A stretch of DNA of 52,647 nt from a virus. The first letter of the stretch is position 1. Every line of letters starts with the position of its first letter. The notes beneath the pieces were generated by a model. It was not told the DNA's origin and ran no database searches. It saw only the letters and a list, made by a program, of their open reading frames with translations. Both the position numbers and the translations under genes were made by a program. The stretch spans positions 1 to 52,647 of the IMG/VR virus record IMGVR_UViG_3300038461_000026; one strand, given 5' to 3'. This document shows, piece by piece, positions 13,270 through 52,647 of the stretch.

Positions 13270-13644
13270 ATGTTTCACGTACCAAATAAAAACAGAAATA
13301 GAATTCACCCGCAATTGGGGTCAGATGACAATATTGGGAATAACGGATTATTTATAATTCCATATTTCAAGCCAAACGGATTAGAATTTAGAGTGATTGC
13401 ATCTGATGGAGAAGGCTGGGAACACGCATCAGTAAGCATTGCACTCCCGGAAAGGGTTGCCTTACGCTGTCCGACATGGGAAGAAATGTGCTACATAAAA
13501 AAGATGTTTTGGGATGAGGAGGATTGTGTAATTCAGTATCACCCATCAAAAAGTGAATATGTAAACTACCATCCTTTTGTACTTCATTTATGGAGGCCGA
13601 CAAATCAAGTGATTCCGATTCCGAAAAAAATAATGATAGGCTGA
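13270..13644 (+). CDS. DUF7694-type phage protein (124 aa)
   Basis: The protein carries a pattern common in phage replication regions: ASDGEGWEHASVSI, PTWEEMCYIKKMFWDEEDCVIQYHP, here in parts, and YVNYHPFVLHLWRP. The conserved acidic, Trp and His residues suggest a catalytic or metal-binding fold, but the family function is not established to my knowledge. I place the start at 13270, 10 bases after the DnaB stop. Its stop shares one base with the start of the following homing nuclease gene. Confidence 0.65.
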   Translation: MFHVPNKNRNRIHPQLGSDDNIGNNGLFIIPYFKPNGLEFRVIASDGEGWEHASVSIALPERVALRCPTWEEMCYIKKMFWDEEDCVIQYHPSKSEYVNYHPFVLHLWRPTNQVIPIPKKIMIG

Positions 13645-14231
13645 TGAAAACCATGGATGACAATTCGAGAATGCCGAAAAGACCAAGGATTTGCGGAATT
13701 TATAAAATACTATCCCCTTCGGGAAGAATATATATTGGTCAGTCAATCAATATTCTGAAAAGATGGGAAACCTATAAATATAAGGCCTGTAAAACACAAT
13801 CAAAACTGCATAATTCCTTTTGTAAGTATGGCGCAATTAATCATATATTTGAAATAATTCACTTTTGCGAGCCTAAGGAATTAGACGACCTCGAAAAATA
13901 TTATATAAATTTCTATGATTCCTGTAATCCGCATACGGGATTGAATTGTGTGGCCGCAGCAAGAGGAAAGGGAATTGTTTCAGCAGAAACCCGAAAAAAA
14001 CTATCAATAGCCAGACTTGGTTATAAACCGACAAAGGAGCATATTGAAAACGTAAGGAAAAACAGATTCAAATTTTCCTCTCCTAAAAGGAAGGTAATTG
14101 ATATAGAAACCGGGATTGTTTATGAATCAATGAAAGCGGCATCACTTTCTTTTGGAATAAAATACACAACATTAAAAATGATGCTGTACGAAAAGAACTG
14201 GAACCGAACTCCATTAAAACTAATAGTATGA
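13644..14231 (+). CDS. GIY-YIG homing endonuclease with NUMOD modules
   Basis: GIYKILSPSGRIYIGQS near residue 18 is the GIY-YIG signature; the following helix carries an Arg in LKRW and the conserved Glu lies in ELDDLEKYYI. Residues about 110-140 (SAETRKKLSIARLG, PTKEHIENVRK) are NUMOD3-type DNA-binding motifs. The last part (VYESMKAASLSFGIKYTTL) is a NUMOD1-like helix-turn-helix. This is the classic Seg-like layout of a free-standing homing gene. It starts in TGATG overlap with its upstream neighbour and ends in ATGA overlap with the resolvase, so it is precisely coupled into the operon. Confidence 0.85.
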   Translation: MKTMDDNSRMPKRPRICGIYKILSPSGRIYIGQSINILKRWETYKYKACKTQSKLHNSFCKYGAINHIFEIIHFCEPKELDDLEKYYINFYDSCNPHTGLNCVAAARGKGIVSAETRKKLSIARLGYKPTKEHIENVRKNRFKFSSPKRKVIDIETGIVYESMKAASLSFGIKYTTLKMMLYEKNWNRTPLKLIV

Positions 14232-19564: not shown

Positions 19565-19756
19565 ATGGATTCAAGGATTAAAAAAGTAAAGTTCCGGGGT
19601 GGCAGGGTAGATGCCATAATGGATAATGGGAACCAAGTAAAATTATTCGATTATACTCCTAAACTTCCGCCTTTCAAGGAAGGAGATCTCAGAGGGAAAA
19701 CGCTGGCCGAGGCTTTTGAGTTTAAGAAAAACCTTGAAAGAATACCAATTATATGA
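19565..19756 (+). CDS. Small protein (63 aa), unknown
   Basis: Starts one base after the ParB-like stop, with its own stop overlapping the radical SAM start (19753). Beta-rich start (KKVKFRGGRVDAIMDNGNQVK) and a helical end (GKTLAEAFEFKKNLERI). It could be a small partner of either neighbour, as suggested by tight coupling. Confidence 0.55.
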   Translation: MDSRIKKVKFRGGRVDAIMDNGNQVKLFDYTPKLPPFKEGDLRGKTLAEAFEFKKNLERIPII

Positions 19757-21069
19757 AATATTGCCTTTATCCTATGTACCCGAAGGATCGGGCGCAGGAA
19801 AGTATCGGTGTAGGGTATTATACCCTTCAGATGTTGGAATTCTTGATCCGGGCAAATAAACACGAACTGATTGAAGTATCAGCGATCGACAAAAAGACAA
19901 TAATTCTAGTTTCGATCTGCACGCTGGATTCAATACCTGTTCTGAGAACTATCCGCAAAAAGCACCCGGAGAATATTATCATTACCGGAGGCCAGTTTGC
20001 TTTCAATTTCCCGGTATGTTTAATCTATTCGGATTACTGCAATGTTGGGGAAGGGTTTGAGTTTCTCCGGTGCAAAAGCCTTGATGAAGCCAAAAAGTTG
20101 AAGTGTTTCACATGGAAGGGCAAGGGTGAAATAGTCGAGCCGTCATCTTTAATTGATTGGCCAATGGTTCCGGCCTGTCAGACAAAACAGGGAATTTACT
20201 ATTACTGGAAAGGAGTTGGCTGCCGGAATAAATGCGGATTCTGTTTCACTTCTTGGACGAAGAACAGACAGGAAAACGACCAGAGAAGGGTTCAGGGAGT
20301 GGCAAACATGGTAAAATCCAAAGGTTCCGGATTAATCTTAATTTCCAATGAGTATGACGATGACACGGAAGTTAAGGTGAAAGATATGATGCTGAAACAA
20401 TTCCTTAAAATCCCATTGAAGGAAGGGAATCCAAAACTAATCCGGCTGGGAATTGAGTTCCCTACAGAAGAAGCGAGGAAAAAGTACGGCAAGCCGTTCA
20501 CTAATGACGAGTTCTATCAAGCTCTGGATAAGGCAGCCGACGAAATGAAAGACCTGAATCTGTTTTTTATTACCGGATTAACACCTTTGGAGGATATTAA
20601 CAACTTATTAACAGGATATAAACGTTATGGAACAAAACCAAAAATATTCGTTAAGCTCACGAACATTACCTACCAGCAGTACACGCCCATTCATGCCGAA
20701 CGGCTCAATATTCACATTGAACATTACGCATATCCGGATTATAAACACGAACTCAAAAACCTGCTCGACCGTCATGCGGGATGGCGCTTCAATATCCTCT
20801 CCTGTGCACGTCCACATAAAGCCTTGTATGAGACATTCATGAATCACATTACAAACGAGGATGAATATGAAATGGCCAGAAAGGTTCTTTCGGCACATAC
20901 GGCGGATGATGCGCTTTCACTTTTGCTTTCTAGTGGAGTGTTGAAAAACGACTTCTCGGGACTTATTCGCTTCTGGTATCAAAAACACGGCACTCTTGAA
21001 GAATCGTATTTTAAGGCGAATACTGAATCGAAAGCTTTCATGGAGAAATACTCAGGAAAGAGCTTTTAG
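19753..21069 (+). CDS. B12-type radical SAM enzyme
   Basis: C157-x3-C161-x2-C164 in GCRNKCGFCFTSW is the radical SAM cluster motif. Upstream, IILVSICTLDS, IITGGQFAF and NVGEGFEFL resemble the Rossmann-like B12-binding domain that precedes radical SAM in methyltransferases and related enzymes. The normal B12-ligating DxHxxG motif is not obvious, so cobalamin binding is uncertain. The rest is a barrel with FITGLTPLED. Substrate unknown: modified DNA base, tRNA or peptide are all possible. The adjacent ParB-like gene suggests a DNA-related role, as inference. Confidence 0.7.
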   Translation: MKYCLYPMYPKDRAQESIGVGYYTLQMLEFLIRANKHELIEVSAIDKKTIILVSICTLDSIPVLRTIRKKHPENIIITGGQFAFNFPVCLIYSDYCNVGEGFEFLRCKSLDEAKKLKCFTWKGKGEIVEPSSLIDWPMVPACQTKQGIYYYWKGVGCRNKCGFCFTSWTKNRQENDQRRVQGVANMVKSKGSGLILISNEYDDDTEVKVKDMMLKQFLKIPLKEGNPKLIRLGIEFPTEEARKKYGKPFTNDEFYQALDKAADEMKDLNLFFITGLTPLEDINNLLTGYKRYGTKPKIFVKLTNITYQQYTPIHAERLNIHIEHYAYPDYKHELKNLLDRHAGWRFNILSCARPHKALYETFMNHITNEDEYEMARKVLSAHTADDALSLLLSSGVLKNDFSGLIRFWYQKHGTLEESYFKANTESKAFMEKYSGKSF

Positions 21070-24059: not shown

Positions 24060-24091
24060 TTTGTTTTCTAATTTTGATTAGTCTAAATTTG
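24060..24091 (+). promoter_or_regulatory. Strong Bacteroidota-type promoter before the portal genes
   Basis: TTTG 24060-24063, 20-base spacer, TAAATTTG 24084-24091: a full match to both boxes. It lies 25 bases before the gene at 24116 and would drive the portal, glycosylation island and onward. Confidence 0.7.
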
Positions 24092-24115: not shown

Positions 24116-24271
24116 ATGGCAAAATTCAGAAGGGTTGCAAAAGTAGGAACTTCCGGCGGCAAGGCAGTTGTGAAAAACAGCAGAGGCAAAATAGTCAGCC
24201 GGCACTCATCAAAAGCCGCAGCTATCAAGGCTGCAAAATCCCGTCAACGGCAGCACGCAAAAAAATCTTAA
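24116..24271 (+). CDS. Small histone-like basic protein (51 aa)
   Basis: Very rich in Lys, Arg, Ser and Ala, with a SSKAAAIKAAKSRQRQHAKK tail resembling Ala/Lys-rich nucleoid proteins. It starts directly after the promoter at 24060 and ends one base before the portal start. A DNA-binding or capsid-lumen role is plausible. No family assigned. Confidence 0.55.
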   Translation: MAKFRRVAKVGTSGGKAVVKNSRGKIVSRHSSKAAAIKAAKSRQRQHAKKS

Positions 24272-24272
24272 T

Positions 24273-25865
24273 ATGGCAAACTTAACCTATGATGATATTA
24301 TTAAGTCGGATGACTTGAATAAGATAAAAGAGACATTTTCAAATCAGAAGGTGGCCTTTAACCAAACAGTGAGTATTATCGGCACGGAAGCAGTAACAAA
24401 AAGAGACAAAACCGGAGAGCAGTATCAGGTTGAAACTATTGCTCAATATAAGGTTGAACAGCATAACGTATTTGATCCGCAGATGCGGAAAATGAAAATC
24501 GTAAATGCACCTACAACAGAAACAGATAAAAACGGAGAGCCTGTTTACAAACTCACATTGGTTGATGTTGCGAGGGTTGGGATTCCCTTTCAGGAACTAA
24601 TTGTTAATCGCAGGGTTGGCTTTATGTTAAGCGATCCCGTCACAACTGATATCCTTTTCTCGAAAGACACAGAAGAAGAAAAGGCATTGCTGGAAATGGT
24701 TGATCGTATTCAAAATGACAATAAGTGTGACTATAAAAACAAAGAGCTTGCCAGAAGGATGATGTCTGAAATGGAGTGTGCTGAAATATGGTATTTCGTG
24801 CCCAATACAGACCCGGATATAAAAGGCCAATATACTTTGCGTATGAAGGTATTATCACCTGATCTGGGCGATCGCCTTTGGCCGCTTTTTGACGAAGTAG
24901 GTGATTTGATTGCCTTTGCAAGAGAATACAAACTCAGGAATATTGACGGGGTTGATATTAACCACTATGACATTTACACAAAAGACCTTGAATATAAGTG
25001 GATTCAGCGAGATACCAAATGGATTCTTGATGACCAGTTAAACCCAAATATTAATCCAATTCCTAATCCTGTTGGGAAAATAATGATAATTTACTACACC
25101 CAGCCACAGCCTGAATGGGCAAAGGTTCAAAGTATGATTGAGCGGTTTGAAATGGTTATATCAAATCATGCTGACACAAATGATTATTTTGGTAATCCAA
25201 TATTAACAGTATCCGGGAAGGTTCAGGGGTTTGCAGCTAAAGGTGAGCAAGGTAAGATTCTGGAACTTGAAAACGGAGCACAGGCAAATTATCTGGCATT
25301 GTCGTCAGAACCAGCGTCCGTAAAGATGGAGCAGGAAAACCTTGAAAGGTTTATTTACACAATGAGTCAGACACCGAATATTACTTTCAGCGAAATGAAA
25401 GGGATGGGTGCAATTTCCGGGATTGCCTTGAAGCTATTATTTCTTGACGCACATATGGCAGTAAAGAGTAAGGAGGAAATCTTCGGAACCGGCTTACAGC
25501 GAAGGTTGAATTTACTGAAGGCCGCAATAGGTAAGATAGTTGATACAAGCCTCAAAGCGGCATCGTTGCAAGTGCAGCTAAAGCCAGTAATAACTCCCTA
25601 CTTACCTATGAATGAAACGGAGGTTATCAGTAACCTTTCTATTGCGCTTACATCCGGGATAATAAGTCAGGAATCAGCGGTCGAGCAAAACCCATACGTG
25701 GCAGATTCGGAAAGCGAAATGGAACGGATAACCGGAGAGGCCGACAAACAAGCTCAACAGGAAAGTAAATTAGCTTCCTTAATGCAAAAGAATAGCATTG
25801 ATAATGCAAACCAAACCCAAAATAATAATGGTCAAAATTCTAATCTTAACACCCAGCAGAACTGA
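24273..25865 (+). CDS. Portal protein
   Basis: 530 residues, the usual length of an SPP1-type portal. The N-terminal part has FQELIVNRRVGFMLSDPV, and the middle shows FARE, DYFGNPILTVSG and NLERFIYTMSQTPNITF, all with the look of the portal wing and stem regions. The C-terminus has MTEVI-type helices and a Gln/Asn-rich tail. It forms the dodecameric ring through which DNA enters. Position after terminase and before a MuF-like gene (across the inserted island) supports the call. Its last 38 bases overlap the first glycosyltransferase gene. Confidence 0.8.
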   Translation: MANLTYDDIIKSDDLNKIKETFSNQKVAFNQTVSIIGTEAVTKRDKTGEQYQVETIAQYKVEQHNVFDPQMRKMKIVNAPTTETDKNGEPVYKLTLVDVARVGIPFQELIVNRRVGFMLSDPVTTDILFSKDTEEEKALLEMVDRIQNDNKCDYKNKELARRMMSEMECAEIWYFVPNTDPDIKGQYTLRMKVLSPDLGDRLWPLFDEVGDLIAFAREYKLRNIDGVDINHYDIYTKDLEYKWIQRDTKWILDDQLNPNINPIPNPVGKIMIIYYTQPQPEWAKVQSMIERFEMVISNHADTNDYFGNPILTVSGKVQGFAAKGEQGKILELENGAQANYLALSSEPASVKMEQENLERFIYTMSQTPNITFSEMKGMGAISGIALKLLFLDAHMAVKSKEEIFGTGLQRRLNLLKAAIGKIVDTSLKAASLQVQLKPVITPYLPMNETEVISNLSIALTSGIISQESAVEQNPYVADSESEMERITGEADKQAQQESKLASLMQKNSIDNANQTQNNNGQNSNLNTQQN

Positions 25866-26811
25866 TTCACCTAGTTTTTATCGTTCCGGGGGAATCGCAC
25901 CCGACTTAAAAAAGCGAATGGATATCGAAATCGATATAAGACAGCCAGACCAAATTATTCTGCATTGGCAGAATCTTCTCCTTTATGATCTTATTATGTT
26001 GCAGCGTCCGTATTTGGATGACATGGTAAGCCTGATGGATTACTGTAAAGACTTAGGTATTCCTCTTTGGGTTGACTATGACGACTATTTACTGGGAGTC
26101 CCGGCAGACAATCATCATTCAGCGACTTATGATCCACATACACGGGAAAACATCAAAGCCTTATTGAAAGGTGCAGATATCGTTTCTGTATCAACAAAAC
26201 CATTAAAGGAAGCTTTCAAGGAATACAATAAGGATATCCGGGTAATCCCTAATGCCTTTAATGATTTTATATTCAAAAAAACAGTATTTCAACCGCAGCG
26301 TCAACGGTTATTCATGTGGAGGGGTGGAGAATCCCATATTTACGATATTATGTCAATGGGAAACGCTTACAACAAAGCGATGAAGGCATATAAAGACTGG
26401 CACTTTCTGTTCATGGGATTCATGCCATGGTATCTTGATCGATCGAGTAATTTCTTTCATCTTGATCCACAAGACGTGATTCATTATCATAAAAACGTCT
26501 TAAAAATGGCTCCTGCAGCCTTTACGGTTCCATTGTATGATAACCTGTTCAATCATTGTAAGTCAAATATTGCTTGGATTGAAGCTTCTTATTTTGGTGC
26601 TGTTTGCATAGCTCCTGATTGGGAGGACTGGCAGGTTCCGGGAGTCTTAAAATACAGTAACGAAGCGGAATTTTCTGCCGCAATAAGTACCATTGCCGAA
26701 GGGTATGACTATTCAAAAGACCTGAAAGCGGCTGCCGATTATATTCGTGGCAATCTGATGTTAAGCGAGGTTAATAAGCTCCGGGAAGATATAATCAAAA
26801 GCCTCCTGTAA
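25828..26811 (+). CDS. GT-B-type glycosyltransferase (327 aa)
   Basis: I start at the ATG at 25828 (MVKILILTPSRTDSP), as an earlier ATG lies in the portal gene. The fold is GT-B-like: YRSGGIAPDL near the start, YDLIMLQRP and WVDYDDYL strands, then IRVIPNAFND and a C-terminal domain with MWRGGESHIYD, LFMGFMP and an E-A-S-Y-F-G-A-V motif (IEASYFGAVCIAPD) that matches the donor-binding region. It would transfer a sugar from a nucleotide donor. It is the first gene of the island between portal and MuF. Confidence 0.7.
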   Translation: MVKILILTPSRTDSPSFYRSGGIAPDLKKRMDIEIDIRQPDQIILHWQNLLLYDLIMLQRPYLDDMVSLMDYCKDLGIPLWVDYDDYLLGVPADNHHSATYDPHTRENIKALLKGADIVSVSTKPLKEAFKEYNKDIRVIPNAFNDFIFKKTVFQPQRQRLFMWRGGESHIYDIMSMGNAYNKAMKAYKDWHFLFMGFMPWYLDRSSNFFHLDPQDVIHYHKNVLKMAPAAFTVPLYDNLFNHCKSNIAWIEASYFGAVCIAPDWEDWQVPGVLKYSNEAEFSAAISTIAEGYDYSKDLKAAADYIRGNLMLSEVNKLREDIIKSLL

Positions 26812-26812
26812 A

Positions 26813-27880
26813 ATGGAACAATCTGAAATGATACGTCCCACATGGGATTACGGCGACTTCCATAGAAACGAATGGATTAAAAAGGACATTACAGTAATCA
26901 TGTGTGAAAGGGACACGGCAGACGTCACAAAACTTTGTCTTGAATCCCTTCTTCGCTTTTACCCTGATATTCCAATTCTAATAATTGACGGTGGTTCTAT
27001 TGATGAATCGCTTAATTATGTTCACTATCTGGCAGCTACTTATCCAAATATAAGGCTCTGGGAGAGGGGGGGGAGAAACGGACACGGGACAATGCTTGAT
27101 GAAGGGATCAGACACTTTATCAAAACGAGGTACGTTTTGCTTTGTGATAATGATATTATTATTAAGCGCGGTGGATGGATTGAACAAATGCTGTGGGCAA
27201 TTAAGGCATCAGAAGAAGGTTTAAATCCTATTTATACCATTGGTACATTAATGCTTGTTTCAGACTCCGGCGACGGCTGTTCTCCACCAAAAGACGACAA
27301 TGATATTCTAAGGTACACTCACCCTTCCTGTTCAATGATTAACAGGGACCTGTATTTACCAATGAGGCCTTTTGTGGAACACGGCGCACCGCTTGTTTAC
27401 AATATGCAAGATGCAAAACAGCGTGGATATCGTGTTGAAAACTTCCCGATTCATTATTACGTTGCGCACCTGTCTGGCGCAAGCTGGACTGAGCCGAGAA
27501 CGATTTGGAAAGATGATATGGACGTTTTGATTCGGCCGTTTTTTACTTTTATCGCAGACAATGTAAATTTCTGTGGAGACTTACACAGACAGTCTAATAA
27601 AGACTATGAGGTCTTATTTACAGGAGAATCTGAAAAGGCCAGCGTTGTAATACATAATCTTTCTTACTATACGGTTGACAATAAGTTATACCCATTTCGT
27701 TTTCGTGTTCACGGAGAATATATATGTCATCTATTTTCGAATATTGAAGAAATGCCAACTAATTTTATTAAGATTGCCAAGAAGACAGTTATTCATCAGT
27801 TATTCCCCGAGGAGATCACTATTGGTGGGTTTAAATTTGTAAAAAGAAAATTATGGCAGCACCGAGAAGCTTTATTGTAG
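26813..27880 (+). CDS. GT-A (GT2-like) glycosyltransferase (355 aa)
   Basis: A classic GT2 opening: ITVIMCERDTADVTKLCLESLL, then ILIIDGGSIDES, GGRNGHGTMLDEGI and VLLCDNDIII, whose DND matches the DxD metal motif. The remainder (about 155-260) carries acceptor-side residues, including an FPIHYYVAHLSG segment. The C-terminal 90 residues are of mixed composition. It starts one base after its neighbour and its 3' end overlaps the next gene by 28 bases. Donor and acceptor sugars unknown. Confidence 0.75.
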   Translation: MEQSEMIRPTWDYGDFHRNEWIKKDITVIMCERDTADVTKLCLESLLRFYPDIPILIIDGGSIDESLNYVHYLAATYPNIRLWERGGRNGHGTMLDEGIRHFIKTRYVLLCDNDIIIKRGGWIEQMLWAIKASEEGLNPIYTIGTLMLVSDSGDGCSPPKDDNDILRYTHPSCSMINRDLYLPMRPFVEHGAPLVYNMQDAKQRGYRVENFPIHYYVAHLSGASWTEPRTIWKDDMDVLIRPFFTFIADNVNFCGDLHRQSNKDYEVLFTGESEKASVVIHNLSYYTVDNKLYPFRFRVHGEYICHLFSNIEEMPTNFIKIAKKTVIHQLFPEEITIGGFKFVKRKLWQHREALL

Positions 27881-28524
27881 GGTTCATTCATGTTTATATG
27901 GTAAATGAATGGGAGGAGATTTTAATGGAACAGATCAAGTTAATGTCTGACTCTGGCCTTTACAATGAAATGCGCTGTGCCAATATTTGCTGTATTGGAA
28001 CAGAACAGAACATGGAACATCTGAAGGAAATCATAAAGCCGATTACCAAATTACAGTTTGCGGCTTGGAGTTCCAATGCTTCCGAATATGAATTTCTGTC
28101 TTTGCGATTTATAAAGGACGTTTGCGATAGGGGAACTACCTTTTACGGCTTTTACATTCACTCAAAAGGAGTTTCTTGGCCGGGACATGAAGGGGGAAAG
28201 TATTGGAGAGATTATATGAACCACTATATTATTACACGGTGGAAAGACGATGTAAAGATGCTTGACATGGGTCACGAAACCTGTGGAGTGAAAATAGTTC
28301 ACAGGAATTGGCCTTTACATTATTCTGGTAATTTCTTCTGGTTTAAAGCTGAATACGTTAAACTTTGCGTTCCGGTAAGTTCAATGAATCTCAAAGATCG
28401 CTTTAACGCTGAAATGTGGATCGGTTCAGGCAGACCTATTGCCGGAACACTTTGTCAGGACTTTGTTGACTATGATACTAAAGGAATATTCACTGCAAAA
28501 GACGATCAATTACCGGGGAAATGA
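27853..28524 (+). CDS. Glycosyltransferase-like protein (223 aa)
   Basis: YGFYIHSKGVSWPG, YWRDYMNHYIITRW and HYSGNFFWFKAEY give the pattern of a family of uncharacterised glycosyltransferase-like proteins found in surface-polysaccharide loci. No classical DxD motif is clear; the conserved H-x-K-G and H-x-S-G-N-F segments may form the active site. It overlaps the GT2-like gene upstream by 28 bases and the outer-membrane-like gene downstream by ATGA. Confidence 0.5.
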   Translation: MAAPRSFIVGFIHVYMVNEWEEILMEQIKLMSDSGLYNEMRCANICCIGTEQNMEHLKEIIKPITKLQFAAWSSNASEYEFLSLRFIKDVCDRGTTFYGFYIHSKGVSWPGHEGGKYWRDYMNHYIITRWKDDVKMLDMGHETCGVKIVHRNWPLHYSGNFFWFKAEYVKLCVPVSSMNLKDRFNAEMWIGSGRPIAGTLCQDFVDYDTKGIFTAKDDQLPGK

Positions 28525-29072
28525 AAACAATCTTACTGTTCATAACTTTGTTAATAACCTTATCCGGGTATGGTCAGGATGATTGTGGAAAGAATCATTT
28601 AGGATCAGGGAATGTTAATAAAGTATGGCGAAGACCTTTGTTAAATTCAATTTATGGCCTTTATCAAGTAGGTGATAATGGGCTGGGGGTTAGGTACGAT
28701 CACTATATTATAAACAGACTAGGCGCATATGGTTCAACATCCAGAGGGAAATACTGGCTTGCCGGAATGTCAAAATCAGTTCACTATAAATTTGCAGCCG
28801 GAGTAATTGTAAAAACTATTGAAGAAGATCGAGCACGGAACTTTCTTTATGCCGGGGTATCTTATCATAATTTCGATAGTCGGCAAGTAAAGGAGATTAG
28901 TTCAAGTAAGCTTCAATCATTGTCATTTGAAATAGGAACCGGAATAACGGTTGACTTTGGCTTTAGCTTGGAGTTCGGATATGACTTTGGAGAAACGAAT
29001 CAAATATTGGCCTTGGCTGGTCATTTTAAAACTATAATTTATGAGAAATTTATGTTTCACTCTTGGTTATAA
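28521..29072 (+). CDS. Outer-membrane-beta-barrel-like protein with signal peptide (183 aa)
   Basis: The N-terminus is a cleavable signal (TILLFITLLITLSGYGQ, cleavage near Gln-19), typical of Bacteroidota exported proteins ending in GQ. The mature part has alternating polar/hydrophobic strands (YGLYQVGDNGLGVRYDHY, LGAYGSTSRGKYWLAG, FLYAGVSYHNFD, SFEIGTGITVDFGFSLEFGY, in parts) as in small 8-strand outer-membrane barrels. It is flanked by glycosyltransferases and overlaps both neighbours. A phage-made barrel could alter the host surface and block further adsorption. This function is inferred. Confidence 0.55.
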   Translation: MKTILLFITLLITLSGYGQDDCGKNHLGSGNVNKVWRRPLLNSIYGLYQVGDNGLGVRYDHYIINRLGAYGSTSRGKYWLAGMSKSVHYKFAAGVIVKTIEEDRARNFLYAGVSYHNFDSRQVKEISSSKLQSLSFEIGTGITVDFGFSLEFGYDFGETNQILALAGHFKTIIYEKFMFHSWL

Positions 29073-29841
29073 TCTTACTTCAGAAATAGAAAAGATTATG
29101 ACCCTTCTTTATCAGCAAAACAAGCCAGAAACTTTCCGGCACTTAGTTGTTGATCTTGAATTTCCGCTCGAAGTAGGTAACGTAATCCCGGCTGATATCC
29201 GTGCAGCAAAACACCGTAACAGCAAAAAGCTTCAGGCCTTGGCAAAACGCTTCGGTTCTTCATACGTTAAGTTTGAGAATATTGGAGTATCGCAAAACTG
29301 GACGCAAGTTTATAAGTTTCTGAAGCCTACAGACGATGATGTATTGATAGGGTGCGACCCTGACGAACACCCACTCAATAAGGATTGGGTTAAGGCAATG
29401 GGTGACGTTATCCGGGTTGGTAACTATGGACTTTGTTCGCTTATGATGACAGACCATATAGATTTAATGGGGAATGTTCCATATACAGAAAAAGAGGTTG
29501 CCGGGAAACGGGTTTATAATGCAGCTGCAGGATCATTGAATTGGGCATTAATAGGAATTAGCGGCAAGTTTCTTAATAAGATCAAGGAGATTCCCTTTCC
29601 GGCGGAAGCTCCACGTTACGGATATATCGAAGCCTGTTTATATCCTAAATTTCAGGAATACGGAATGGATTGGTGCGTAATGGCAGACTATCAAGTAAGA
29701 CATACAGACTTTGAACTTCACGATCCCGGCACTTCTTCTTTGCTCCGGGAGTGGAAAAATCAGATAATATTTAAGGTTCATCAATACGGCCAGTTATCAT
29801 TTGAGGAATGGCTAAAAATGAGAAGGGAGAACAGAATATAA
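29041..29841 (+). CDS. GT-A-like glycosyltransferase (266 aa)
   Basis: The segment LTSEIEKIMTLLYQQ leads into FRHLVVDLEFP, and later DDDVLIGCDPDEHP supplies a D-x-D metal motif of a GT-A enzyme. The C-terminal part (IEACLYPKFQEYGMDWC, DYQVRHTDFE) has acceptor-like aromatic residues and a late Asp/His pair, as in several short phage glycosyltransferases. It starts inside the barrel gene (32-base overlap) at the ATG at 29041. Its stop lies 4 bases before the hairpin structure at 29846. Confidence 0.6.
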   Translation: MRNLCFTLGYNLTSEIEKIMTLLYQQNKPETFRHLVVDLEFPLEVGNVIPADIRAAKHRNSKKLQALAKRFGSSYVKFENIGVSQNWTQVYKFLKPTDDDVLIGCDPDEHPLNKDWVKAMGDVIRVGNYGLCSLMMTDHIDLMGNVPYTEKEVAGKRVYNAAAGSLNWALIGISGKFLNKIKEIPFPAEAPRYGYIEACLYPKFQEYGMDWCVMADYQVRHTDFELHDPGTSSLLREWKNQIIFKVHQYGQLSFEEWLKMRRENRI

Positions 29842-29845
29842 ACCA

Positions 29846-29925
29846 AAGGAAGCGGGGTGGGGTTAACCATTCGAGAGAGTATTAACCACTGTTTTTGTGA
29901 GATTAAACGGCCACTCCGCTTCCTT
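29846..29925 (+). ncRNA. 80-base three-way-junction-like hairpin/terminator
   Basis: AAGGAAGCGGGGTGG (29846-29860) pairs with CCACTCCGCTTCCTT (29911-29925), 15 base pairs with one G-T. Inside, GGTTAA (29861-29866) pairs with TTAACC (29882-29887), and CAC (29887-29889) can pair with GTG (29897-29899). Thymine-rich sequence follows. It may be a terminator with a large branched loop or a structured RNA at the boundary of the inserted HNH gene. Folding was by eye. Confidence 0.45.
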
Positions 29926-29962
29926 CATTTGTTTTTATTGTTATTTTACAAGAAAATACAAT

Positions 29963-30394
29963 ATGAAAAACAGACCAACAGGCTTAACTTACACTAAGCA
30001 TAAAGAAAATCCAACGAGTTTTGTAAAGGGATTTACCCCTTGGAATGCAGGGTTAAAGGGAATGGGAATATGTAACCCCACACCCGGTTCAATAAAGAAG
30101 GGAGACAGAATTAGTACCCAAACAGAATTCAAACCCGGCGACAATATTGATAATAATAATCACAAATGGAAAGGAGAACAGGTTGGTTATTATGGAGTTC
30201 ATACATACATGAGGAGAAGGTTAGGAAACGCTGTATCTTGTGTTAGATGTGATACACTTGATTCTAAAAGATATGTCTGGCATAACATAAGTGGAAAATA
30301 CAAAAGAGACATAAATGATTGGGAAAGCCTTTGTTCAAAATGTCATCGGCGATTACATATAGAGTTAAAAAAGAAAGAATTAATACAGATTTAA
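29963..30394 (+). CDS. HNH homing endonuclease-like protein (143 aa)
   Basis: The N-terminus (TSFVKGFTPWNAGLKGMG) is a NUMOD3-like DNA-binding stretch. The C-terminal part has CVRC and CSKC zinc-knuckle pairs bracketing KRYVWHNISG, with His in CHRRLHIE as the last HNH residue. I start at the ATG at 29963; an upstream start would reach into the hairpin. Its stop is one base before the epimerase start. It is the only selfish gene within the glycosylation island and is not intron-borne. Confidence 0.65.
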   Translation: MKNRPTGLTYTKHKENPTSFVKGFTPWNAGLKGMGICNPTPGSIKKGDRISTQTEFKPGDNIDNNNHKWKGEQVGYYGVHTYMRRRLGNAVSCVRCDTLDSKRYVWHNISGKYKRDINDWESLCSKCHRRLHIELKKKELIQI

Positions 30395-30395
30395 G

Positions 30396-31307
30396 ATGAT
30401 TTGCATAACAGGAGTTGCGGGTTTTGTCGGAAGTAACATTGCACAACGACTAATAAACGAAGGGCTATTGGTATTTGGAATTGACGACCTTTCCTTTGGG
30501 AATATGAAGAACGTCCCGGAGAATAAGAACTTCCGTTTTGAGAAAATGGGATTTAATGAGTTGCCAGAGCAGACATTAAGGAATGCTGATATTTTGATTC
30601 ATTGTGCGACCTCAAATATTATTTATTCTATGGATCACCCCGTCGAAACCTTCAAGAATAATGCCGGGGATACTATTAAGCTTTTTAATCGCTTTCATGG
30701 GAAGATAATTTATACCGGCACAAGCTCGGTTTATGGAAACACTATGCAACTGCCCACTCCTGAAGATGCGGAAATACTATCCAGTAATGCATACGATATT
30801 TCAAAACATATTGCCGAGCTTTATTTGCAGAAAAGGGGTAACTTCACAACACTCCGATTAACTAACGTGTACGGCAAGAACCAGAGGGCAGACAATCCGT
30901 TTTGCGGAGTTATAGGGAAATTAATTGATTGTGCATTCACAGGCAAAAAATTCACAGTTTATGGAGAAGGGAAAGATACTCGGGATTACACAAATGTTGA
31001 AGATGTTGTGGAAGCTGTACTACAGGCAGTTAAATTACCAGCTATGGAAACTGAAATCAACGTCGGCACAGGAGTCGAAACAAGCACCCTCCAATTAATC
31101 TCCTTAGTCCGGGAGATATGCAATGTTCAGGTTCAGTTCTTTTCAATGCACGGCCGTCCTATTGATAAAATTCATCGCCGTTGTCTTGATATAAGGAAAG
31201 CAAAAACCCTGCTCAATTGGGAACCTCGCTTTACGCTGGCGCAGGGATTACCTATGGCAATAGAATGGTACGCTACAAAAATGGAACCTTCTGCAGTAAG
31301 GATTTAA
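30396..31307 (+). CDS. NAD-dependent sugar epimerase/dehydratase
   Basis: Extended SDR fold: GVAGFVGSNIAQRL (Rossmann GxxGxxG), FGIDDLSFG binding the cofactor ribose, IYTGTSSVYGN with the catalytic Ser/Thr region, and YDISKHIAELY with the catalytic Tyr-xxx-Lys. C-terminal TNVYGKNQRADNP, FTVYGEGKDTRDYTNVEDV and LLNWEPRFTL match UDP-sugar epimerases. It converts one nucleotide sugar to another and would supply donor to the neighbouring glycosyltransferases. Length 303 aa is usual. Its specificity cannot be read from sequence. Confidence 0.85.
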   Translation: MICITGVAGFVGSNIAQRLINEGLLVFGIDDLSFGNMKNVPENKNFRFEKMGFNELPEQTLRNADILIHCATSNIIYSMDHPVETFKNNAGDTIKLFNRFHGKIIYTGTSSVYGNTMQLPTPEDAEILSSNAYDISKHIAELYLQKRGNFTTLRLTNVYGKNQRADNPFCGVIGKLIDCAFTGKKFTVYGEGKDTRDYTNVEDVVEAVLQAVKLPAMETEINVGTGVETSTLQLISLVREICNVQVQFFSMHGRPIDKIHRRCLDIRKAKTLLNWEPRFTLAQGLPMAIEWYATKMEPSAVRI

Positions 31308-31310
31308 CGG

Positions 31311-32375
31311 ATGCCGGATTATTCGCTTTTATATCGAAAGCTCTTTTTACAGAAACAGGCGAAATTTCTTAACCAGTACGGTAATCTATTCGGTAAGGTG
31401 GCCAATGACGTTTCACAGCTGGTCAACAATCCTTCGGCAAAGTTTGCGAAGGCTTTTCAGTTTAATAAGACTATTGATTCCGGCCTGTCACAGATAATTA
31501 CCACTTTTAACAAAGATTCATTAAAGCTTCAGGTATCGAACATTGAAGGGAGCTGGGGAATTGCAAACCAAAAGAATGACGCAATAGTAAATGAATACCT
31601 TTCCTTACTTGGGAATCTAAAGGAAATAACTGCCAATCCATTATTTGCGGCTTCTGTTAATTTTAGTCCAAACACCAGCGCTTTAGAAGCTTTTATTACC
31701 CGGAAATTCGGTTCGGAGAATCTTTCAGATAGGGTCTGGAAGATTGGCGACCAACTAAGGAACGAGATGGAAATTCACTTGGGGGTCGGAATAATGAATG
31801 GGGATTCTTCGGAAGTTATCAGCAGAAGGATACGACAATACCTGCAAAAGCCTGACGACTTGTTTCGGCGGGTTAAGAATGAGGCCGGACATTTAATCCC
31901 AAGTAATGCAATGACCGAAAACGCACCGGGGAAAGGGGTTTATAATTCAGCTTACAAGAACGCAATGCGTCTGGCAAGAACGGAAACAAACATGGCGTTT
32001 CAACTTGCAGATCATGAAAGGTGGATGAATATGCAGATGGTTACCGGGCAAAGAATTGAGCTTTCGGGCAGTCATCCCGATTATAATTACCCGGAGATAT
32101 GTGAAGAACTTGAAGGCGACTATCCGAAGGAGTTTATCTTTGCAGGCTGGCACGTTCAGTGCTTGTGTCATGTAGTTCCAATCATGATGCCGAAAGACGA
32201 TTTTAGAAGTTTTTTGCGTGGGGAAACGAAAACCATTGAACCTAAACAATTGAAAGATTACCCGTCTAATTTTGAAGCGTACCTGAAAGCCAACGCTGAA
32301 AAGTTTACTTCAGAAAAAAACACACCTTACTGGTTTTCTAATAATGCGGAAATTATAAGAGCTGTAGTTAAATGA
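31311..32375 (+). CDS. MuF-like head morphogenesis protein
   Basis: Residues about 215-300 carry the MuF-type pattern: NAMRLARTETNMAFQLADHERW, in parts, then a Gly/Thr stretch, C-x-x-L-E-G-D-Y-P-K (ICEELEGDYPKEF) and GWHVQCLCHVVPI, where the conserved P-H-x-x-C-x-C is here AGWHVQCLC. The N-terminal 200 residues are helical and of capsid-assembly type. It would sit at the portal vertex. It is normally directly after the portal; here the island separates them. It starts 3 bases after the epimerase. Confidence 0.65.
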   Translation: MPDYSLLYRKLFLQKQAKFLNQYGNLFGKVANDVSQLVNNPSAKFAKAFQFNKTIDSGLSQIITTFNKDSLKLQVSNIEGSWGIANQKNDAIVNEYLSLLGNLKEITANPLFAASVNFSPNTSALEAFITRKFGSENLSDRVWKIGDQLRNEMEIHLGVGIMNGDSSEVISRRIRQYLQKPDDLFRRVKNEAGHLIPSNAMTENAPGKGVYNSAYKNAMRLARTETNMAFQLADHERWMNMQMVTGQRIELSGSHPDYNYPEICEELEGDYPKEFIFAGWHVQCLCHVVPIMMPKDDFRSFLRGETKTIEPKQLKDYPSNFEAYLKANAEKFTSEKNTPYWFSNNAEIIRAVVK

Positions 32376-32486: not shown

Positions 32487-32519
32487 TTTGTTTTGTATTG
32501 ATAAAAATGTATAACTTTG
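32487..32519 (+). promoter_or_regulatory. Bacteroidota-type promoter before the scaffold and capsid genes
   Basis: TTTG 32487-32490, 21-base spacer, TAACTTTG 32512-32519. It lies 16 bases before the scaffold gene and would raise capsid expression. The 160-base gap 32376-32535 holds nothing else I recognise. Confidence 0.6.
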
Positions 32520-51141: not shown

Positions 51142-52323
51142 ATGCCAGATATTGTAACTGGAATTGGGATTAAAATTGATCAGGCTTCAGGCAGTCGTAA
51201 CTGGACTCCCCTAAGAATCTCATCAAAGTTTCTTGAAGGATGGTCAATTACTGGTGCAGGGAATCTTGTCGGGCAAATACTTGGAAACATCTTAACTGTT
51301 GGTGGCAGTGCAGGCAGTTACACATTTCAGGTTCCTCAGACGACTCCTTATCTTAATGCTGATGATGAATATATTTGGGTAAATCCTGATGGAGTAACAT
51401 GGAGAACCGCAACAGAGAACGAGTTAATAACCAGTGATTTTTCAAAGACTTTCGTTAAATATGATAATACAACACCTTATGCAATAAGAGAGATTTGGAT
51501 TCTTAAGTCAGGACAAACACTAACAACTGCTGAAGAAAACCACATGAGGGATTACTGCCAACTTTCTTATTGGTGGAGTGATGTACTGTCTAATTATGGA
51601 GCATGGAAGGGAAATCGAACAGTAGGTAAGGCTGTATGGGGTCCAGACATTCCACTTATTCCAACAGGACTAACTCTTAGTTTAATTTCTGGTGGCGTTA
51701 AGGTTGATTGGACGGATAATACAGGAGGTACTGCACAGACAGAAATATGGGCACAGAACGACGGAGGAACTTCTGCCTTAGTTTATACTATTAATGCAGG
51801 AATAGTAACGAAAAGCGAAACGGTCAATCCTGTTGATTTGAGGTATTACAAAATAAGATCTAAGAGAAGTGGTCTTTATTCTGCATTTACAAGCGAAGTC
51901 TCTATTGCAATGCTTGGAGCGGAAAAGGTTACAAACGGTGGTTTTGCTGACGGAACGGGATGGACTATTACAGCTCCGGCAGGATGGGTAATCTCCGGAG
52001 GAAAGGCTATCTATGCTTATAGTCCTTATAACAGAATTATTAGGCAGAATATGGCTATTACTTTAAATCACTATTATAGATTAAAGTTTACTATAGCTGA
52101 TATAACAGTAGCGGCAGCAATAGGGTTTTATGGAACAAATTTTACTTTTGCAACGCCCTTTCATGGAACTCCTGACGGTTATCCTGCGCAGACTGCGGGT
52201 GATAAGGTGTATTATATAAAATGTATAAATACAGAAACAGAACTTGTTGTATATGGTTTGCCTGCAATTGGGGTTTCATTTAGTCTCGATAATTTATCAT
52301 TAAAAGAAATATTAAGTCCATGA
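51142..52323 (+). CDS. Tail protein with Fn3-like and carbohydrate-binding-like modules (393 aa)
   Basis: Residues about 1-165 are unknown but tail-like. Residues about 172-258 look like a fibronectin-type III domain (PTGLTLSLISGGVKVDWTDN opening). The last 130 residues (VTNGGFADGTGWTITAPAGW start) resemble a carbohydrate-binding jelly roll (CBM4/9/22-type). Stop overlaps the GH29-like gene start by ATGA. It may position or assist the sugar-directed tail spike that follows. Confidence 0.6.
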   Translation: MPDIVTGIGIKIDQASGSRNWTPLRISSKFLEGWSITGAGNLVGQILGNILTVGGSAGSYTFQVPQTTPYLNADDEYIWVNPDGVTWRTATENELITSDFSKTFVKYDNTTPYAIREIWILKSGQTLTTAEENHMRDYCQLSYWWSDVLSNYGAWKGNRTVGKAVWGPDIPLIPTGLTLSLISGGVKVDWTDNTGGTAQTEIWAQNDGGTSALVYTINAGIVTKSETVNPVDLRYYKIRSKRSGLYSAFTSEVSIAMLGAEKVTNGGFADGTGWTITAPAGWVISGGKAIYAYSPYNRIIRQNMAITLNHYYRLKFTIADITVAAAIGFYGTNFTFATPFHGTPDGYPAQTAGDKVYYIKCINTETELVVYGLPAIGVSFSLDNLSLKEILSP

Positions 52324-52647
52324 CAACGATAGTTCCGGGGATGACTCCTGCCGCATTTGTAGCAGCATTGAACAGTAATTTTCATTCTGCTCAAACACCT
52401 ATTACTACCGTAATGGATGCAGCAACTCTTAAATCTACTTTTGAGGCTAATTATGATTGTGTTCAGGCAATAATATCTAAAGTGCCTAATAAAACTCCAT
52501 TAGTTGTTGGTGCAAACGCAAGCGATTTTATAGGTGCATTAAATACAAATTATGCAAATATTAACAATTGGATAACAAACTCACCGCCCGTCACAGGACT
52601 GATGACTCTTGCAAACACAGGAACTAAAACTCCTGCAACGAGCAGTA
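52320..52647 (+). CDS. GH29-like tail/receptor-binding protein, N-terminal part
   Basis: First 109 codons of the gene that continues at 37-1031. Starts in ATGA overlap with the previous gene. The N-terminal region repeats a motif: TPAAFVAALNSNF (about 9-21) and ASDFIGALNTNY (about 67-78), each followed by a short helix, suggesting an adapter that docks on the tail. The residues then run into the GH29-like barrel. Reads on in frame across the 36-base overlap. Confidence 0.65.
   Translation, partial: MTTIVPGMTPAAFVAALNSNFHSAQTPITTVMDAATLKSTFEANYDCVQAIISKVPNKTPLVVGANASDFIGALNTNYANINNWITNSPPVTGLMTLANTGTKTPATSS
52612..52647. repeat. Right copy of 36-base terminal overlap
   Basis: Repeats 1-36 with one synonymous mismatch (T at 52631 against G at 20). 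It indicates that the molecule closes into a circle or is permuted, and that the read population held two variants at this base. Confidence 0.85.

Follow-up and report, generated by a model that had tools for sequence, protein, structure and literature searches.

The window, meaning the whole stretch of 52,647 nucleotides analyzed here, carries a cluster of glycosylation-type genes between its portal gene and its MuF-like head gene. A preliminary description had proposed such a cluster, and Pfam and PHROG matches together with the gene coordinates bear this out. The island is present in one clade of related phages and absent outside of it, and this pattern suggests a single ancient gain whose cargo has varied since. 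Phage-encoded glycosylation is already known, and the window island would be a variant of it. For its function, we put at about even odds that it is a clade-wide, cargo-variable cassette through which a phage-specified glycan is made in the cytoplasm and put on a virion protein.

Layout and proteins of the island

All genes named in the preliminary description lie on the plus strand, at the positions listed here:

24060-24091, plus strand: Bacteroidota-type promoter-like site ahead of the portal gene (TTTG-N20-TAAATTTG)
24273-25865, plus strand: portal protein, SPP1 type, the left border of the island (PF05133 2.2e-45, phrog_64 4e-66)
25828-26811, plus strand: GT1, a phage-type glycosyltransferase and the island's nearly constant gene (phrog_7162 1.6e-27)
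26813-27880, plus strand: GT2, a glycosyltransferase family 2 enzyme (PF00535 1.8e-12)
27853-28524, plus strand: x3, a conserved protein and probable GT-A-like transferase (no family; weak fold matches)
28521-29072, plus strand: x4, a putative exported protein outside the core (signal-like N-terminus; no family)
29041-29841, plus strand: x5, a predicted GT-A fold glycosyltransferase (AlphaFold model; conserved DPDE motif)
29897-30394, plus strand: HNH-like gene (PF01844 0.0059, below cutoff)
30396-31307, plus strand: SDR nucleotide-sugar epimerase (PF01370 9e-36)
31311-32375, plus strand: MuF-like head morphogenesis protein, the right border of the island (phrog_7625 5e-40, phrog_115 2e-27)
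32487-32519, plus strand: Bacteroidota-type promoter-like site after MuF, ahead of the scaffold and capsid genes (pattern match)

The portal and MuF genes, the latter backed by several head-morphogenesis PHROGs, are 5.4 kb apart. By their coordinates, the gene at 25828 overlaps the portal gene by 38 nt, 27853 overlaps 26813 by 28 nt, 28521 overlaps 27853 by 4 nt, and 29041 overlaps 28521 by 32 nt. These four overlaps and the shared orientation of the island genes, with no internal promoter match in the window, agree in arrangement with the single coupled operon that had been suggested. The core island genes have the GC content of the portal gene (0.40-0.41), and we rejected a recent foreign origin of the core on this ground; only x4 (0.366) and the HNH-like gene (0.352) fall below it. 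No transmembrane segments were found in any island protein of the window, and they occur in 6 of 109 ORFs from the islands of relatives.

Promoters of Bacteroidota follow the motif TTTG-N19-21-TAnnTTTG. The window contains 5 matches to it, all on the plus strand, versus 1.5 expected, and 0 of 100 shuffles reach 5; a generic sigma-70 scan of the window did not rise above shuffles (35 vs 29.4, sd 5.6). Two of the matches, at 24060 and 32487, bracket the portal, island, and MuF genes, and the site at 32487 has counterparts in the gap between MuF and the major capsid gene of L027, L033, and L017. With this second site, the major capsid operon would have a separate promoter. The island had been proposed to be transcribed with the capsid genes from 24060; this stands for portal and MuF but not necessarily for the major capsid gene, since that gene has a promoter-like site of its own. 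The host is likely a member of the Bacteroidota, because relatives are found in Bacteroidota genomes and the promoter-like sites are of the Bacteroidota type. A 51-aa Lys/Arg-rich ORF lies between terminase and portal at 24116-24271, just past the 24060 site.

GT1 is 41-52% identical to nine aligned relatives. GT2 belongs to glycosyltransferase family 2, with a PF00535 score of 47.9 bits against a curated cutoff of 23.3, and it matches the GtrB-like phrog_841 only at 0.0012; neither Megablast with 14 kb nor a tblastn search with GT2 returned matches among phages. No sequence family matched x5, whose orthologs are 44-70% identical, and an AlphaFold model built from six sequences (pLDDT 84.5, pTM 0.85) has a GT-A fold, with VIA Z scores of 13.6-15.4 to cellulose synthase, PcManGT, TarP, RmlT, and GalNAc-T2. 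We are confident in the GT-A fold of x5, which makes it a predicted glycosyltransferase. The three genes initially described as glycosyltransferase-like, at 25828, 26813, and 29041, are thus borne out by phrog_7162, PF00535, and the fold model, respectively.

The fourth, x3, had been called a probable glycosyltransferase and keeps that grade as a probable GT-A-like transferase, since profile searches found no family, its model is of low confidence (pLDDT 65), and its GT-A-like matches are weak. Z scores of that model reach 10.8, with GT-A folds mixed with nucleotidyltransferase folds, and no Foldseek match fell below 1e-3; the protein is 54-62% identical among relatives. Sequence profiles built for GT1, x3, and x5 brought up no credible relative in the PDB. 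Profile searches also found no family for x4, which is 20% identical to the gene in the equivalent position of L027. The gene described as HNH falls below the family cutoff, and it is 43% identical over 82 residues to an island gene of L014, L017, and L064; it is probably a later insertion. The sugar epimerase was correctly recognized: it matches PF01370 over its full length with 123.9 bits against a cutoff of 20.9, which places it among the SDR nucleotide-sugar epimerases, and it matches phrog_540 (2.8e-46), with UDP-glucose 4-epimerase as its best PDB match (2.4e-35). No equivalog cutoff was reached for it in the family search.

Distribution and cargo of the island among relatives

Relatives were gathered by portal and MuF searches of viral contigs and genomes, the island genes were then mapped, and a maximum likelihood tree of 53 portals was rooted at its midpoint. 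The 25 portals accompanied by GT1 form one clade with 100/100 support, while 25 portals with MuF but without GT1 all fall outside of it. GT1 presence requires 1 change on this tree versus about 17 under label shuffles, which suggests a single gain as the simplest reading, though not as proof because the root is at the midpoint. A further clade member, L081, is represented by a fragment that stops 2.6 kb past the portal gene, and no GT1 was seen on it. The combination and position that had been called unusual are therefore standard within this clade, and a literature search at the title and abstract level found no report of glycosyltransferase genes between portal and MuF.

Where a single contig of a clade member holds both portal and MuF, an island of 2.8-13.7 kb separates them (L024 2.8, L071 3.2, L083 4.5, L033 5.1, L027 6.5, L005 7.2, L031 8.7, L134 10.3, L157 11.0, and L095 13.7 kb), versus gaps of 0-1.3 kb outside the clade. 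The exception is L092, a phage in a Prolixibacteraceae MAG and the earliest branch, where portal and MuF are 266 nt apart and GT1 lies 7.5 kb downstream, an intermediate or relocated state. The nearest relatives lacking the island are prophage-like regions of Tangfeifania, Geofilum, and Breznakibacter. Riemerella phage RAP44, Porphyromonas phage005b, and Bacteroides phage Versailles resemble the window in portal, MuF (31-35% identity), and remaining gene order, but their portal and MuF genes are 0-0.5 kb apart with no island between them.

The order portal-GT1-GT2-x3-x5-epimerase is common to the window and five others, L027, L033, L083 (a Bacteroidota MAG contig), L095, and L097 (cut off before MuF); x4 and the HNH-like gene of the window are extras to this conserved core. 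Elsewhere in the clade the cargo is swapped among GT2, GT10, and GT11 families, DegT aminotransferases, NTP transferases, and epimerases, all of them sugar chemistry, and fucosyltransferase-family genes are part of it in some members. The L064/L017 island holds GT2-family genes, two DegT aminotransferases, GT11 and GT10 family genes, and an epimerase, and that of L031 an HAD-NTP transferase, GT2s, and an epimerase. L077 carries an RmlA-like NTP transferase, an epimerase, and a DegT aminotransferase, a set that reads as a putative amino-sugar nucleotide pathway. L060 has a 2419-aa protein between portal and GT1 (L060:5640-12899) that lacks a Pfam match. Several MuF proteins have long C-terminal extensions, possibly fused effector domains, giving lengths of 1474 aa in L024 (3831-8255), 661 aa in L027 (9992-11977, without a Pfam match), and 609 aa in L033 (7213-9042); MuF of the window is 354 aa.

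GT1 also recurs beside packaging genes of the HK97 type (PF03354/PF04860), which belong to another family than the SPP1-type portal of the window. Among 39 divergent GT1 records, picked by similarity to GT1 rather than at random, 8 have a PF03354 terminase, and in all of these but L096 (7 of 8) GT1 is at most a few genes away from the terminase or portal. The order is TerL-portal-GT1 in L103 and L108, TerL-GT1-portal in L110, and TerL-GT1 followed at some distance by the portal in L109 and L116; GT1 follows TerL at a contig end in L113 and is upstream of TerL in L106. Further glycosyltransferase-like genes accompany it in two of these records: in L116 a TOD1/MUCI70 glycosyltransferase and a glycosyltransferase group 1 gene lie between the terminase and portal genes, and L103 shows the order portal-GT1-TOD1 glycosyltransferase-methyltransferase. 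Since the other 31 of the 39 records lack a PF03354 terminase, the adjoining of GT1 and packaging genes is a pattern in a subset and not a rule. Escherichia phage VEcB (Stephanstirmvirinae) has a similar run of glycosyltransferase genes, gp194-gp197, including a GT1 homolog of 22% identity, but these four genes lie between lysis and replication genes, outside the head module.

Proposed virion glycosylation and competing functions

Soluble-looking enzymes in a head operon, together with sugar-nucleotide genes, fit the glycosylation of a cytoplasmic virion acceptor under assembly. The glycan would be assembled in the cytoplasm during head assembly, with a co-made head or neck component as its most likely target. 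GT1 would place the first sugar on a conserved acceptor of the virion, the chain would be lengthened or branched by GT2, x3, and x5, and the epimerase would provide a sugar nucleotide, so that swaps of the downstream genes between phages would alter the glycan, as in bacterial serotype cassettes. We count in favor of this reading the GT1 clade, the conserved core order, the sugar-chemistry cargo, the recurrence beside HK97-type genes, the lack of transmembrane segments, and the bracketing promoter-like sites. Counted against it are the GT1 relatives away from head genes (VEcB, L092, and the 31 of 39 records without the HK97-type terminase) and the weakly glycosyltransferase-like x3; the place beside the portal may reflect insertion tolerance there.

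Virion glycosylation is known in mycobacteriophages, with glycans on capsid and tail-tube subunits (Freeman 2023, as cited in PMC12619734). Phage-encoded glycosyltransferases, a criterion for phage virion glycosylation, are found in the window as in that system. The window differs in that several genes form an island at a fixed portal-MuF site of Bacteroidota phages, that this island includes sugar-nucleotide genes and cargo open to exchange, and that its glycan is a predicted one. Bacterial capsule and O-antigen cassettes are likewise fixed loci with exchangeable glycosyltransferase and sugar-nucleotide genes, but the island is phage-borne, lies within a head operon, and was not seen to contain genes for a polymerase, a flippase, or export. 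A more specific proposal, which we hold tentatively and as somewhat less probable than its converse, is that the island acts as a phage "serotype" locus, an ancient cassette, fixed in position but exchangeable, that would coat the virions of each relative with a different glycan and whose conserved initiator, GT1, would have been recruited more than once beside unrelated packaging genes.

The preliminary description had left a choice between glycosylation of the virion and remodeling of the host surface. The latter, in which LPS, capsule, or surface glycoproteins are altered late in infection and superinfection or loss of progeny on debris is blocked, appears unlikely to us, at perhaps one chance in a few. 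Phages can modify host O-antigen, the cargo resembles the sugar genes of capsule and O-antigen, x4 looks exported, and a tail gene at 93-1031 matches alpha-L-fucosidase. However, x4 is outside the conserved core, the fucosidase was not found in the 19 other records searched, and the island encodes no membrane protein such as a flippase, a polyprenyl-phosphate transferase, or a polymerase, so surface remodeling fits less well. Nor does the window island have the makeup of a Gtr O-antigen conversion cassette, as no island protein of the window has the transmembrane segments that the membrane flippase GtrA and the membrane transferase GtrC would show beside GtrB. The soluble enzymes, the head operon, and GT1 repeatedly beside unrelated packaging genes are indirect evidence that leads us to favor virion modification over changes to the host surface.

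It is more doubtful still that the portal-MuF gap is simply an insertion hot spot that tolerates cargo and has picked up sugar genes without a single shared function. Island content does vary strongly, HNH-like and exported-protein genes have entered, and L071 has GT1 with no GT2-family or epimerase gene detected, but the consistent sugar chemistry, the retention of GT1 in 25 phages, the conserved five-gene order, and the recurrence of GT1 beside packaging genes of unrelated phages all argue against this reading. Phage glycosyltransferases glycosylate DNA in T4-like and other phages, and the window carries a radical SAM gene at 19753; the transferases could by this precedent sugar modified bases against restriction. 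We regard this as very improbable, since the island is in the head module and not beside replication genes, and no base hydroxylase or hydroxymethylase is among the Pfam matches of 34 other window ORFs, many of which lack a family. For phage DNA glycosylation, PMC12619734 cites Pyle 2024.

Should virions bear exchangeable glycans specified by the phage, glycan-coated phages could be predicted from head-module sequence alone, which would matter for how Bacteroidota phages adsorb, bind mucus, and are recognized by the immune system. Scattered reports of glycosylated particles would then become a locus-based system open to survey and test. The clade offers a natural comparison: its related head genes are accompanied by differing cargo, and in the sister prophages the site is empty.

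Other features of the window

The C-terminal part of the tail-type gene at 93-1031 matches GH29 alpha-L-fucosidase (PF01120 1.4e-5; PDB 3gza 2e-7), and because of this match the window phage probably meets fucosylated host glycans. A clade-wide partnership between the fucosidase and the island was rejected, as among 20 records, several of them fragments, only the window has the fucosidase. Fib_succ_major (PF09603) and Lcl_C (PF07603) domains, possibly of C-type-lectin-like tail proteins, were found among the 34 scanned ORFs, and a GIY-YIG type homing endonuclease lies at 13590-14231 (phrog_314 9e-25). The radical SAM protein (19753-21069) has a B12-binding-like N-terminal region (TIGR04013 7e-6), and in Bacteroides phage Versailles, too, a radical SAM gene lies upstream of the packaging genes. 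The 36 bases at either end of the record match each other except at one position, and the frame of the 93-1031 gene continues across them with 52320-52647; the record may for these reasons be a near-complete genome.
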